The notes under the pieces were generated by a model, which had not been told where the DNA came from, did not search any database, and was given only the letters and a program-made list of their open reading frames with translations. Both the position numbers and the translations under genes were made by a program. A stretch of 64,000 nucleotides of DNA, from the NCBI GenBank assembly GCA_028277445.1, contig JANQGG010000009.1:1-64000 (forward strand). Reading direction: 5' to 3'. Position 1 is the stretch's first letter. Every line of letters starts with the position of its first letter. Origin of the DNA: Chloroherpetonaceae bacterium (lineage in GTDB: Bacteria; Bacteroidota; Chlorobiia; Chlorobiales; Chloroherpetonaceae). Below are positions 53,777 through 63,946 of this stretch, piece by piece.

Positions 53777-54853
53777 ATGTCAAAATATTTATCTGTTAGT
53801 GAAGCAGCTGAGAAATTAAACGTTAGTTCGGAGACTCTTAGGCGTTGGGATAAGTCTGGTAAGTTTAAGAGTTCAAGACATCCAATTAATAATTATCGAG
53901 TATATAGCGAAGGACAGGTTCTTTCGTTGTTTGAAGAAATGCAGATGGAAATTACCTATCGAAAAAGGAATGTTTCATCAATTAAGCACGATACATACTT
54001 TGAAACTAAGTTAGGTAAATTGTATAACGCAGATTCATTGGAATTTTTGCAGACGTTAGAACCAGATTCAATTGATCTGATTTTTGCTGACCCTCCTTAT
54101 AACCTTAAAAAGGCTGAATGGGATTCCTTCTCTTCACAACAAGAGTATGTTGAGTGGAGCTTGGAATGGATAGCTGAATCAAGTAGAGTACTTAAGAATA
54201 CTGGTTCTCTTTATATCTGTGGATTTTCAGAAATATTAGCGGATGTAAAGTGGGCATCAGCACACTTATTCAAGGGATGTAAGTGGTTAGTATGGTTTTA
54301 TAGGAATAAGGCGAACTTGGGAGGTGATTGGGGGAGATCACATGAAAGTATTCTACATTTAAGAAAGTCTAAGGACTTTAAATTTAATATTGATGAAGTT
54401 CGGGTCCCTTATAATAATCATACATTGAAATATCCATTAAGACATCAAGCTCAGTCATCTCAATATGCAAAAGGGAAGAAAAATGGAAAGAAATATGTTT
54501 GGAAGCCTCATCCATTAGGGGCAAAACCAAAAGATGTTATTGAAATACCTACCTTATCAAATGGTTCTTGGGAACGTTATGCTCATGAGACACAAAAACC
54601 TATTGAGCTTTTGAGAAAATTAATACTCTCATCTACAGATAAAGGGGATATTGTTTTGGATCCATTTGGTGGCTCGGGTTCAACTTATGCTGTTGCAGAG
54701 GCTTATGATCGAAAATGGATTGGTATAGAAAAAGAAGTATCTTATTGTTATATCATTTCTCAAAGGCTTTCTGATCAAGATCATTTGTCAAGAATAAAAA
54801 GTGAAGTTGATACTAAAGAATCCAATAAAAGAAGACAAAAGTTAAGAGGATAG
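53777..54853 (+). CDS. Type II DNA methyltransferase with N-terminal MerR-like HTH
   Basis: 358 residues. N-terminal helix-turn-helix 'LSVSEAAEKLNVSSETLRRW' (residues 4-23). Catalytic motif IV 'LIFADPPYNLKKAEWDSF' comes early (~residue 112) and motif I 'VLDPFGGSGSTYAVAEAYDRKWIGIE' late (~residue 295), the beta-class order of N6-adenine/N4-cytosine enzymes. DPPY is most often seen in adenine methyltransferases. Convergent with, and overlapping by 12 bp, a probable restriction enzyme gene. No Shine-Dalgarno; a likely leaderless message. Base composition is even more AT-rich than neighbours, suggesting recent gain. Confidence 0.9.
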   Translation: MSKYLSVSEAAEKLNVSSETLRRWDKSGKFKSSRHPINNYRVYSEGQVLSLFEEMQMEITYRKRNVSSIKHDTYFETKLGKLYNADSLEFLQTLEPDSIDLIFADPPYNLKKAEWDSFSSQQEYVEWSLEWIAESSRVLKNTGSLYICGFSEILADVKWASAHLFKGCKWLVWFYRNKANLGGDWGRSHESILHLRKSKDFKFNIDEVRVPYNNHTLKYPLRHQAQSSQYAKGKKNGKKYVWKPHPLGAKPKDVIEIPTLSNGSWERYAHETQKPIELLRKLILSSTDKGDIVLDPFGGSGSTYAVAEAYDRKWIGIEKEVSYCYIISQRLSDQDHLSRIKSEVDTKESNKRRQKLRG

Positions 54854-55729
54854 TAATTTCCAGATATCTGAGGTTATTAGCTCGGAAAAAGACTTGATAT
54901 ATTTGCTATACGGCTCTTTTTTTGCATTAGGAGGTGGATCAAGATAATAAACGCCCTCTAGCTCTGTTAGGAAATTGCTGTAAACCATAAAAAGACCTGA
55001 AACGAGAGTGTAACTGATATTGGCCTCTTCCTTCCTCTGTACGTCATTCAAAAATATTCCGATTACTTTTTGATCATGTTTAACGAATCTTTCCAACAGG
55101 ATTTTGTCGATAAACATTTTCCCCATTCGATCTTTGGAAGTAGTTTTTACGGATACCACAATTTCATCCTTGTCCAAAAATTTAGATGTTGACTTTACTG
55201 ATCTATATGGAGATAGAATCAAGTCATTCTCACATTTGTATACCTTAGTTCCTTCGTCTGTTTCATAAGGTATTTGGAGTATAGTCTTTTTGTTTGAGAT
55301 TCCTATTTCCGTGAAAATCACCTTGATCAATTCTTCAAACCTATTCCCAACATGCTTTCGTGCACTGTTTGGGTTTACGAGAAGATCGAGACCTGCTCCT
55401 ATAGATTGTTGAATTGTGTATAGGGTTTGATCTATTAGCAATAGTTCCTCAGTACTGAAAGTCCGATCACCATTTTGTATTCTGATCAATAATTCAGAAA
55501 ATAACGAAAGCGTAATTTGGAATTTATTTAGATCAGCTATGAAATATCGAGTATTAATTGGGCGAATAAATTTCTTAACACCTGCCTGTTCGCTAATGTA
55601 TATTCTGTAATCCCCTTTGTCGTTGAAACTAGTTAATACAGCCGGAAGGTAGTTCAATACACTTTTGGCTATTTCAACAAATTGATAGAGTTCTATTTTC
55701 TTTTCTTGTAGGTCTGAATCTAGAGCCAT
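54842..55729 (-). CDS. Probable type II restriction endonuclease
   Basis: 295 residues. I do not recognise the exact family, but 'KCENDLILSPY' followed by 'EIVVSVKTTSKDRMGKMF' matches the N-D…(V/E)xK-T-T-S-K-D-R active-site pattern seen in restriction enzymes of the PD-(D/E)xK class. Its 3' end overlaps the 3' end of the MTase on the other strand by 12 bp, the usual tail-to-tail RM layout. Specificity unknown. Starts at ATG 55729; 181 bp upstream to the DUF1566 gene. Confidence 0.78.
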   Translation of the reverse strand: MALDSDLQEKKIELYQFVEIAKSVLNYLPAVLTSFNDKGDYRIYISEQAGVKKFIRPINTRYFIADLNKFQITLSLFSELLIRIQNGDRTFSTEELLLIDQTLYTIQQSIGAGLDLLVNPNSARKHVGNRFEELIKVIFTEIGISNKKTILQIPYETDEGTKVYKCENDLILSPYRSVKSTSKFLDKDEIVVSVKTTSKDRMGKMFIDKILLERFVKHDQKVIGIFLNDVQRKEEANISYTLVSGLFMVYSNFLTELEGVYYLDPPPNAKKEPYSKYIKSFSELITSDIWKLLSS

Positions 55730-60354: not shown

Positions 60355-61023
60355 TTATGAAATGCTCCGTTGCAAAATTTTATTACTTTGCAACTCATAT
60401 TTTTTTATTTCTCGTTTAATTTTATCTGATTTTGTCTCATTTGAAACTGAAGTTAGAAAATCGCCGATGTGTTTCTTATCCGGTAAATTATGATCTATGG
60501 AAGATAGTAACTTAATAAATTCTGATAGCAGGAAATTCTGATGTTTTTCTGAATTTGTATTTATCCTTAATGAATCAATTATTTTTGAAATAATCATTGA
60601 AGCCAAATGCGACTTTTCTTTTATTATTATTGCTGAATTATTTATACAACATTTAATTGTCGAAATTTTTTCGTCATGAAGTTGTTTGTAATAATTTTCT
60701 ACAATCAAGTCAAAATGATTGTTTTTATCTTCAGAAATCAAGTTCGCTATCAAACCCATACCGTAGTTTCTATGATAGGAGTTTTGATGTTTAAGTAAGC
60801 TTGCGAAATTCTCCCAATAGCGATAAAAAAGAGATGGATCGTTTTTTGTCGCTTTTTCAAGAATCAAATAGGAGTGATAGTAAATATTTATTGAATCATT
60901 TTCCAAGAGATTTTTGACCAAAATATCTCTGAAACTACCATCATTAATAGCTATGTCAAAAAATGGGGTAATATCAACTTTGGTTTCTGATACGGTTAAT
61001 AAATAGTTTTTTTCATCCATCAT
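60355..61023 (-). CDS. Unknown helical (HEAT/ARM-like) protein
   Basis: 222 residues, entirely helical with paired helices of ~15 residues: 'FRDILVKNLLENDSINIYYH', 'LFYRYWENFASLLKHQNSYHRNYGMGLIANLI', 'CCINNSAIIIKEKSHLASMIISKIIDSL'. This looks like HEAT or armadillo repeats, which mediate protein contacts. It has no signal or membrane segment. A perfect 10-bp inverted repeat (61032-61080) lies just upstream. Confidence 0.6.
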   Translation of the reverse strand: MMDEKNYLLTVSETKVDITPFFDIAINDGSFRDILVKNLLENDSINIYYHSYLILEKATKNDPSLFYRYWENFASLLKHQNSYHRNYGMGLIANLISEDKNNHFDLIVENYYKQLHDEKISTIKCCINNSAIIIKEKSHLASMIISKIIDSLRINTNSEKHQNFLLSEFIKLLSSIDHNLPDKKHIGDFLTSVSNETKSDKIKREIKKYELQSNKILQRSIS

Positions 61024-61208: not shown

Positions 61209-62888
61209 TCATGTGTTTTGATCGGTTAAACTGCTTTGAAAATCAGTATGCCAATCGGAACTGATGTTGGCAAGAATATTTTTAGGATGCGTTCGTTGAT
61301 GGCTTAAATATTTGGTCTGTATCTGGTGATCGCCAACCAGGATATTATTAGCAAACATTGTAGTTCCGTAATCGTCCAGAGATTCAAGCTGATCGTAATC
61401 GCCAAGCAATAAATTAATTAAATCGTCGTCAAAGTCGATGGCTTCAACCGTTTTGATTTGCGCATTTCCTTGCAGGGTAATGAGCGTATCGCCGCTTTTT
61501 ATTTCGTCGGCGCTTCTTGGCCCATCCGGCGTAATCACAACATGGCAACTTGATAAGGTAATTTGATCGCCTTTTTGGGTCGTGATCCGTAATGCCGTTC
61601 CTTTGTAATGCCCTAAAGTTGTGGCTCGAACAGGCAATGTATCTCCTTTTGCATTAATCTGCACCACATCGCCGCTATCTATGGATTCAATGGATTTCGT
61701 TGTTCCGTCAGAAAGTCGTATTTGAGTATCTTTTGCCAGGCAATGCCAATAAAATACCAGAGGCTTAATATTTTTTAACCCGGGAGCGTCGTTTAATTCG
61801 TAATCTTTGCCCTGTTTGCTATACACAAAAGCCCATACAAATGCATCCGGACTGTTTTTGGTTTTCACGCCAATATTGCACCTGAAAAGCGTAACCGTAT
61901 CGGCTACCCACGGCGATTTTTCAAACGAAATGGCTTTCCCAGCCGTTTTGCCATCGCCGTCGGCGGGAAGATTCCATTCCAGAATAGTGTACTTTTTTTG
62001 CTCGTCTAAGCTTCTGGAAAACCACGGATACACCTGATTCATATCATGAGGGGTTACTTTCTTTTCACCGCCTTCAGCTCTAACGACCTTCATATCCACA
62101 AATAAAGTATCCGAAGGAATTAATTCCAGAAGTTCGCTTTGAAACGTTACGCTGCCTTTAAAGGGTACAACAATCGTGTTATTTGCCCACTGGCCTTTGT
62201 GAAACCAATAATCGCTATCCTCGGCTTTGTGCCCGCGCGAGAGGGCGATCATGATGTTTTTTTTATCTTTGTGCTCAGGTTTTGAAGCGGGTTGGATCAC
62301 TTTTGGAACATCGGCGGCGCCGGCAAGTTTATCGCTTTTAACAGCCCCATAGTAAGGGGTGTTGTCTATAACCAACGCATAATTAAGTACGGCTTTTATT
62401 TGACGGGGTTCTGAAGCGGCTTTGGTTTCTATTTGGACATATCTTCCGTTCCCAATATCAGTCATAGGCGTAGTGCCGATGACTTCGTGGGTTTGGGCAT
62501 CCAAAATTTGAAGGATCAAGGTTGTTGAATTGGTGCCGTTATTAATGGTGGAATAGGCTAGCGCATTAAAGCTTTTTTCAAAAAAAGATAACCCGGCAAT
62601 GGCATTGCTATTCACAAACCCATCATCATCGGTCTGGTTTAGCAGTTGTGATATCGCGTTTATTCCGCCCTGTTTGTGATGAGTGCAACAGGCATCTAAA
62701 TGCTCATGAAGTTTCGGATATCGTTCCTGAGTAATGTTGTGCGTATTAAATAATAACTTCCAATATGCATAGTGATCGTCATTTGAAAGATCAAAGCGTA
62801 AATGCTCGTCCTCTTCAAGCCGGTCTAGTTCACCCTGAATATGTTGAAACGCCTTACTTTCCTTAAACAAAGATGTATTGATAGCCAT
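61209..62888 (-). CDS. Hint-domain protein, unknown N-terminal region
   Basis: 559 residues. The C-terminal part is a Hint (hedgehog/intein) domain from Cys383: 'CLAKDTQIRLSDGTTKSIES' (nucleophile Cys first, block A), 'SCHVVITPDGPRSADEI' (block B-like His), and 'FANNILVGDHQIQTKYL' (final block with GDH in place of the intein HN). There is no intein C-terminal Asn-Cys/Ser junction and only 25 residues follow, so it could cleave or ligate but not splice. The first 380 residues hold no known family: helical start, then beta-rich domains ('TLILQILDAQTHEVIGTTPM', 'IMIALSRGHKAEDSDYWFHKGQW'). No signal peptide. 23 bp behind a beta-rich gene. Confidence 0.7.
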   Translation of the reverse strand: MAINTSLFKESKAFQHIQGELDRLEEDEHLRFDLSNDDHYAYWKLLFNTHNITQERYPKLHEHLDACCTHHKQGGINAISQLLNQTDDDGFVNSNAIAGLSFFEKSFNALAYSTINNGTNSTTLILQILDAQTHEVIGTTPMTDIGNGRYVQIETKAASEPRQIKAVLNYALVIDNTPYYGAVKSDKLAGAADVPKVIQPASKPEHKDKKNIMIALSRGHKAEDSDYWFHKGQWANNTIVVPFKGSVTFQSELLELIPSDTLFVDMKVVRAEGGEKKVTPHDMNQVYPWFSRSLDEQKKYTILEWNLPADGDGKTAGKAISFEKSPWVADTVTLFRCNIGVKTKNSPDAFVWAFVYSKQGKDYELNDAPGLKNIKPLVFYWHCLAKDTQIRLSDGTTKSIESIDSGDVVQINAKGDTLPVRATTLGHYKGTALRITTQKGDQITLSSCHVVITPDGPRSADEIKSGDTLITLQGNAQIKTVEAIDFDDDLINLLLGDYDQLESLDDYGTTMFANNILVGDHQIQTKYLSHQRTHPKNILANISSDWHTDFQSSLTDQNT

Positions 62889-62911
62889 AACAAGCTCCCT
62901 ATTGAAAGTTT

Positions 62912-63946
62912 TTATTTAGATGGATTGATTTTACTGACGAGTACTTTTGCAATATTGAGTATGCCAAGTTTTGTATTAACGATGGATGTTTTAATCAGCT
63001 TTAATGAAAAGGACAGACCCTGTAAAACTAACTTGGATAAAGTCATGCTGATTTTCAGGGACTCAATAAGAAGCTTGAATTTTAAATTTATAGTCAGGTT
63101 AATGCCAAATGTAATCCAAATACCAATGTACCAGACGATAAATTTGAACCCGATATTTACGCTCCATCTTGGATGCCAGTCTACCAGCTTTGTTAGGTTA
63201 ATATCCGAACTGCCGGATTTTGTATCCAGCTCTAATGATAACTTTGGTGATGTGACTTTTTCGACGGTAAATGACGACGATATATCCGGGATATCTAGTC
63301 TCGGTACATTAACGGGACCGATAGCAGTTTTATCCAACTCCAAATTCTCAAAGGGAAGACTGACTTCGGAATCTAATTCTACATCATCTATTTGACTTGT
63401 GTTGGTTTGAAAATTATCGGCTATCAATTGGGTATCGGCAGAAAGGGTAAGAGAATCAACGGAGATATTTTTTGCATCAATGTCTATATCGGCGTTGATA
63501 GGCACAGGGAACAAATGAAAATCTATGCCGCCGTTTTGAGCCTCAATGATCTGCTCGTTTCCGCCAATCAATCCTTTTTTTGAATCCTCATGGTAGTCAA
63601 TCTCACCGGTTGTTTTCTCTGAGATGTTCGTAATTTCAGTTTCGATTAATTGCATCACCGAATCGGCTTGTGCGTTGTCTAAACCGGCGTTTATCAGTTT
63701 TTGCTTAAATTCCTCAACGGACTCGTCTTCATTTAATTTGGACTTTTTGCCCCATCCCCAGTCAAACACGGTTGAAAAATCAATGTGTAGCACGCCGTTT
63801 TGCATCGTGCCTTTTAACTTTGTATTTCCTGTGATTTCGTCAATGCTTAAGTTTTTAACATCGGCCTCAAAGTTTAGATTAGAGGCAATTCCATCGGCTG
63901 TGGTTGGGTCTAACCGGATACCGTTAAGTTGAATTTTGTTGCTCAT
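62912..63946 (-). CDS. Unknown beta-rich protein upstream of Hint protein
   Basis: 344 residues; no family recognised. The first 250 residues alternate hydrophobic and polar residues with many Asp, Ile, Val and Thr ('IDIDAKNISVDSLTLSAD', 'VELDSEVSLPFENLELDK'), as in beta-solenoids or stacked beta repeats. Residues ~255-335 are a hydrophobic, strand-forming end ('FKFIVWYIGIWITFGINLTI', 'LKISMTLSKLVLQGLSFSLKL') that may insert in a membrane. No signal peptide. ATG at 63946. The next gene lies beyond the window. The Hint-domain gene follows 23 bp later, so they are probably one unit. Confidence 0.6.
   Translation of the reverse strand: MSNKIQLNGIRLDPTTADGIASNLNFEADVKNLSIDEITGNTKLKGTMQNGVLHIDFSTVFDWGWGKKSKLNEDESVEEFKQKLINAGLDNAQADSVMQLIETEITNISEKTTGEIDYHEDSKKGLIGGNEQIIEAQNGGIDFHLFPVPINADIDIDAKNISVDSLTLSADTQLIADNFQTNTSQIDDVELDSEVSLPFENLELDKTAIGPVNVPRLDIPDISSSFTVEKVTSPKLSLELDTKSGSSDINLTKLVDWHPRWSVNIGFKFIVWYIGIWITFGINLTINLKFKLLIESLKISMTLSKLVLQGLSFSLKLIKTSIVNTKLGILNIAKVLVSKINPSK

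Follow-up and report, generated by a model that had tools for sequence, protein, structure and literature searches.

A rare bacterial family of stand-alone Hint proteins predicted to cleave without splicing

A Hint gene and its neighbors in the window

The window, that is, the whole 64,000-nucleotide stretch analyzed here, corresponds to bases 1 to 64000 of a 114.7-kb contig. Near its end lie two open reading frames separated by 23 bp, which encode proteins of 559 and 344 amino acids and are placed exactly as the first-pass annotation had them (Table 1). Codon usage was native for both the Hint ORF (0.28 bits/codon) and the 344-aa ORF (0.25 bits/codon), compared to -0.07 for an antisense ORF. 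The region preceding the Hint domain, annotated as about 380 residues without a signal peptide, comprises 382 residues, and no signal peptide was recognizable at the N terminus (MAINTSLFKESKAFQHIQGELD) of the 559-aa protein. Signal peptides were judged by eye.

Table 1 Features of the Hint gene and of the gene upstream of it, with positions in the window
Feature	Position	Strand	Basis
559-aa protein: N-terminal region, Hint domain, and C-terminal tail	61209..62888	-	ORF; full-length homologues in other genomes
Residues 1-382, N-terminal region	61743..62888	-	Beta-rich by low-confidence model
Residues 383-520, Hint domain	61329..61742	-	Profile and predicted fold
Cys383 codon, first Hint residue; predicted cleavage His382|Cys383	61740..61742	-	Invariant in 11/11 members
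His449 codon, block-B histidine of the (S/T)xxH motif	61542..61544	-	Invariant in 11/11 members
Gly519-Asp520, where inteins have His-Asn; +1 residue His521	61329..61334	-	VGD invariant in 11/11 members
Residues 521-559, C-terminal tail, predicted helical (low confidence); conserved Q524 and D549	61212..61328	-	Model and alignment
AGGGAG, ribosome-binding-like sequence, 6 nt before the Hint ATG	62895..62900	-	Sequence
344-aa upstream protein, amphipathic-beta pattern	62912..63946	-	ORF, codon usage; no homologue detected
Residues 262-288 of the 344-aa protein, most hydrophobic stretch, alternating pattern	63083..63163	-	Hydrophobicity pattern

Just downstream of the Hint gene is a 222-aa gene (60355-61023) with an unusually low G+C content of 28% and no convincing Pfam match. 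The next gene upstream of the 344-aa gene is divergent and by sequence encodes a ParA-like ATPase; it is followed by a 209-aa gene (L005:4380-6012). Elsewhere in the window, the sequence at positions 53777-55729 points to a DNA methyltransferase whose N terminus carries a MerR-like helix-turn-helix, and a 295-aa gene tail-to-tail with it, which has no Pfam match, could encode a restriction enzyme.

Evidence for a C-terminal Hint domain

Searched as a single sequence, the 559-aa protein gave weak Hint matches that fell under every curated cutoff (1.5e-4 for PF13403 and 2.7e-4 for TIGR01445). With a profile of seven family members (A6), however, the Hint match was solid, and the PDB entries matched included 8w20 (best E value, 1.6e-12), the bacterial intein-like (BIL) domain 2lwy (5.2e-12), and many inteins. 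The predicted fold agrees with the profile. An AlphaFold2 model of the Hint region matched the gp41-1 intein in Foldseek with an E value of 9.2e-9 and a TM score of 0.85 by target length, and further matches were to BIL2 and hedgehog Hint. The model of the 559-aa protein was good in the Hint part alone (pLDDT mostly 60 to 85), with values mostly below 50 in the N-terminal region. The annotated Hint match thus survived profile searching, and the domain lies at the C terminus from Cys383, its residue 1, as proposed.

The annotation had also noted that the splice-site Asn is lacking, which is correct because Gly519-Asp520 stands where His-Asn would be. In inteins, His-Asn follows the last block of the domain. 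The family profile aligned its ANGIxV motif with that block of the PhoCDC21-1 intein, and the conserved V ends the block at the point where inteins continue with His-Asn.

A rare family found sporadically in several phyla

The whole architecture of a ~382-aa N-terminal region, a Hint domain, and a ~40-aa tail recurs in Azospirillum, Tistrella, Embleya, and Pseudoalteromonas, where relatives were found by tblastn, and in a Chlorobiales MAG, where genome searches found it. The genome of the window, which we take to be that of a Chloroherpeton-like bacterium, belongs to this order as well. A scan of genome contigs with the 559-aa protein alone gave no match, and a scan with a three-member alignment yielded two more Azospirillum genomes and the same MAG. 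The N-terminal region and the Hint domain were joined in one gene wherever they were found, and the N-terminal region without Hint was not found in 394 genomes of the phylum. The full family was present in 2 of these 394 sampled genomes. Hint domains as such occurred in 62 of them, mostly within long ORFs, which we interpret as inteins or as Hint proteins of other kinds. Many Chlorobiales genomes carry stretches resembling Hint domains or inteins in long ORFs, mostly of ~1,500 aa (L012-L027); these stretches are probably inteins. The family is real but rare, and sporadic over several phyla. We found no description of it in the literature searched. A phage origin was rejected, as searches of phages and viral contigs gave no match. 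The tree, unreliable because its branches are long, does not place the two Chlorobiales copies together.

Eleven members were aligned over their whole length. Cys1 and the block-B (S/T)xxH motif are present in all 11, as is VGD, after which the +1 residue varies (H, V, Y, N, or L). A Gln four residues after VGD and an Asp in the tail are also common to all of them. The mean pairwise identity between genera was 33% for the Hint domain, 25% for residues 195-382, 17 to 19% for residues 1-194, and 22% for the tail. A signal peptide was apparent by eye in the Pseudoalteromonas homologues only.

The upstream gene is not a conserved partner

The 344-aa ORF shares its strand with the Hint gene and is plausible as a gene; it is probably lineage specific and cotranscribed or cotranslated with the Hint gene. 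Its product had been annotated as beta-rich with a hydrophobic end. Most of the protein shows an alternating, beta-type amphipathic hydrophobic pattern, and residues 262-288 form one moderately hydrophobic stretch. No signal peptide was recognizable by eye. A single-sequence AlphaFold model (pLDDT 44), of which the confident part is only one long C-terminal helix, conflicts with the beta-type alternation and was set aside.

No relatives of the 344-aa protein were found in Pfam, PHROGs, NCBIfam, PADLOC, PDB, plasmids, IMG/VR, or the 394 genomes, and no homology was found to proteins B or D of the operons of relatives described below. The other Hint copies are preceded by genes that are unrelated to it (an M4 protease, an MFS transporter, a hydantoinase-like gene, and transposase remnants). 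The first-pass annotation had proposed that the two genes form a self-processing secreted or surface system and suggested searching for the pair in other genomes. The pair was absent within the searched collections, although the Hint protein itself does recur. We rejected a conserved two-gene unit, since the 344-aa protein has no homologue in any collection searched and precedes no other Hint copy. What remains of the architecture proposed as novel is a Hint autoprocessing domain C-terminal to a separate region, kept across phyla. A secreted or surface location is likewise unsupported for the window proteins, as neither protein of the window has a signal peptide by eye and only the Pseudoalteromonas homologues appear to have one. 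A known defense system was also rejected, with no PADLOC match.

Gene contexts of the relatives

In Tistrella pTM1, Embleya, and the Chlorobiales MAG, the Hint gene is the first in a same-strand series encoding very large proteins (1,000 to 3,900 aa). The genes that follow it encode a 1,053- to 2,002-aa protein (missing in the MAG), a ~1,200-aa protein, a variable middle protein, and a giant protein of 2,500 to 3,900 aa, which has LysM matches in Tistrella and the MAG. This related giant-protein operon was seen in three phyla (L038:17389-37878, L039:14026-36420, and L029:6692-20000). The ~1,200-aa protein has relatives in Nostoc, Azospirillum B510 and 4B, Lysinibacillus, and others. Relatives of the operon without a Hint gene were seen on Nostoc, Azospirillum, and Lysinibacillus plasmids, and no family Hint gene was present within 16 kb on either side at the four loci of ~1,200-aa-protein relatives examined. 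The middle gene in the MAG, Nostoc, and Azospirillum 4B had a weak endonuclease/exonuclease/phosphatase match that was under the cutoff (E values, 1e-4 to 0.03). The operon-protein B family had no match in the window's own genome, in a search that lacked a positive control and shows little.

Other genera have different neighbors. In Pseudoalteromonas, the Hint gene follows one for an M4 metalloprotease that carries PKD and GEVED domains, and the cluster (L004:3434-13967) comprises this protease, a Hint protein with an apparent signal peptide, and several related proteins. The Hint gene of four Azospirillum strains faces a halogenase/LodA-type oxidase/ferritin-like cluster in convergent orientation (L002:9124-13544). 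A single function is uncertain because the gene contexts differ between genera. Two readings by eye, of the Pseudoalteromonas neighbors as membrane-attack-type pore formers and of a 479-aa Tistrella protein as a metallo-beta-lactamase, were not confirmed.

Comparison with known Hint systems

Hedgehog, intein, and BIL subfamilies of Hint have been described (PMC5874633, PMC7664689, and PMC7906309). The 559-aa protein shares the Hint fold, the Cys at position 1 (C383), and the block-B His (H449) with the superfamily, including class 1 inteins. Similar to the hedgehog Hog Hint-SRR, it has a C-terminal Hint domain after a separate functional region, Cys1, a TxxH-type motif, no C-terminal Asn, and an extra segment behind the Hint domain. 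Unlike Hog, it is bacterial, has no signal peptide by eye, and has a tail of only ~40 aa. Hog also has an Asp that activates the sterol (D243 of hSHH; PMC7906309), whereas the family has no invariant Asp between V409 and H449. The BIL domain 2lwy of Clostridium thermocellum, which is among the best PDB sequence relatives, is likewise bacterial, with Asn at the block-F position and no +1 nucleophile. However, the family Hint ends in an invariant Gly-Asp and not in His-Asn as in A-type BIL domains, with only a short tail behind it.

In contrast to class 1 inteins, the Hint domain of the 559-aa protein has no terminal Asn, no +1 Cys/Ser/Thr, and no endonuclease. Inteins end in Asn, Gln, or Asp followed by Cys, Ser, or Thr; here, Asp520 is present but is followed by H, V, Y, N, or L among the members. 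There is also no conserved host protein around the family Hint, only ~40 residues follow it, and the N-terminal region was found only with this Hint. Four of seven family Hint domains match PF07591, the PT-HINT of polymorphic toxins. Unlike in PT-HINT proteins, only residues 521-559 lie behind the Hint domain, nothing of toxin size, and the part to be freed is N-terminal.

Predicted processing and alternatives

From the sequence, we consider it probable that the 559-aa protein undergoes N-terminal cleavage without splicing. It would be a stand-alone autoprocessing protein with a hedgehog-like order of a 382-aa region, Hint, and a short conserved tail. In the folded protein, Cys383 would carry out an N-to-S acyl shift at the His382-Cys383 bond, which we infer because Cys1 and (S/T)xxH are conserved. 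Splicing should not then be completed, as His-Asn is replaced by Gly-Asp and the +1 nucleophile is absent. Water or a small nucleophile would resolve the thioester, separating a free 382-aa N-terminal region from the remaining 177 aa of Hint and tail. The argument for cleavage without splicing is thus that Cys1 and the block-B His are kept while the C-terminal His is lost and the +1 nucleophile is absent. Consistent with it are the profile and fold matches of the Hint domain, the occurrence of Cys1 and (S/T)xxH in all 11 members despite mean identities between genera of 17 to 33% by region, the replacement of VHN by VGD in every member with no fixed residue at +1, the finding of the N-terminal region and Hint only together, and the related operon in Tistrella, Embleya, and the Chlorobiales MAG. 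The released N-terminal region may act with locally encoded partners; partners encoded nearby may be involved because the Hint protein of the relatives heads operons of very large proteins.

The invariant Asp520 counts against this reading, as it could support C-terminal cleavage; Asp is among the residues with which class 1 inteins end (PMC7664689). In a BIL-like dual cleavage, Cys383 would cut on the N side and Asp520 on the C side, giving three fragments. The Asn shared with 2lwy at the block-F position also fits this, but the penultimate His is Gly in all members, the residue after Asp varies, and the tail is conserved as though it stays attached, so that we regard dual cleavage as unlikely. 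A hedgehog-like ligation is slightly less likely still. There, the tail would hold a lipid or other nucleophile that attacks the thioester, and the N-terminal region would become covalently attached, for example, to a membrane component. The hedgehog domain order with its conserved ~40-aa tail behind Hint and the Foldseek matches to hedgehog Hint point in this direction; the missing counterpart of the hedgehog active-site Asp, the shortness and the mean identity of only 22% of the tail, and the lack of a signal peptide in the window protein argue against it.

Still more doubtful is a catalytically dead Hint domain with a structural role. Throughout the family, the C-terminal catalytic residues are missing, as would be expected for such a domain. 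However, neither Cys1 nor the block-B His varies between genera even though overall identity is low, and a purely structural module is disfavored because it would not need these residues. It would be an equally long shot to regard the family as a bacterial counterpart of hedgehog processing, in which a nonsplicing stand-alone Hint within giant-protein operons attaches its N-terminal region covalently to a lipid or other nucleophile with the aid of the tail.

With N-terminal cleavage as the preferred reading, the family would represent a compact, putatively nonsplicing Hint protein with an invariant Gly-Asp for His-Asn, sporadic over several phyla and in three phyla tied to an operon of giant proteins. 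If it does cleave, autoprocessing would extend to a new protein class, and a handle on the giant-protein operons would be gained. The MAG contig that carries the family member also encodes a second, different Hint-type protein of 662 aa (L030:4454-6442); it has a Cys-rich start and ANGIVVGD as in the family, followed by several hundred amino acids.
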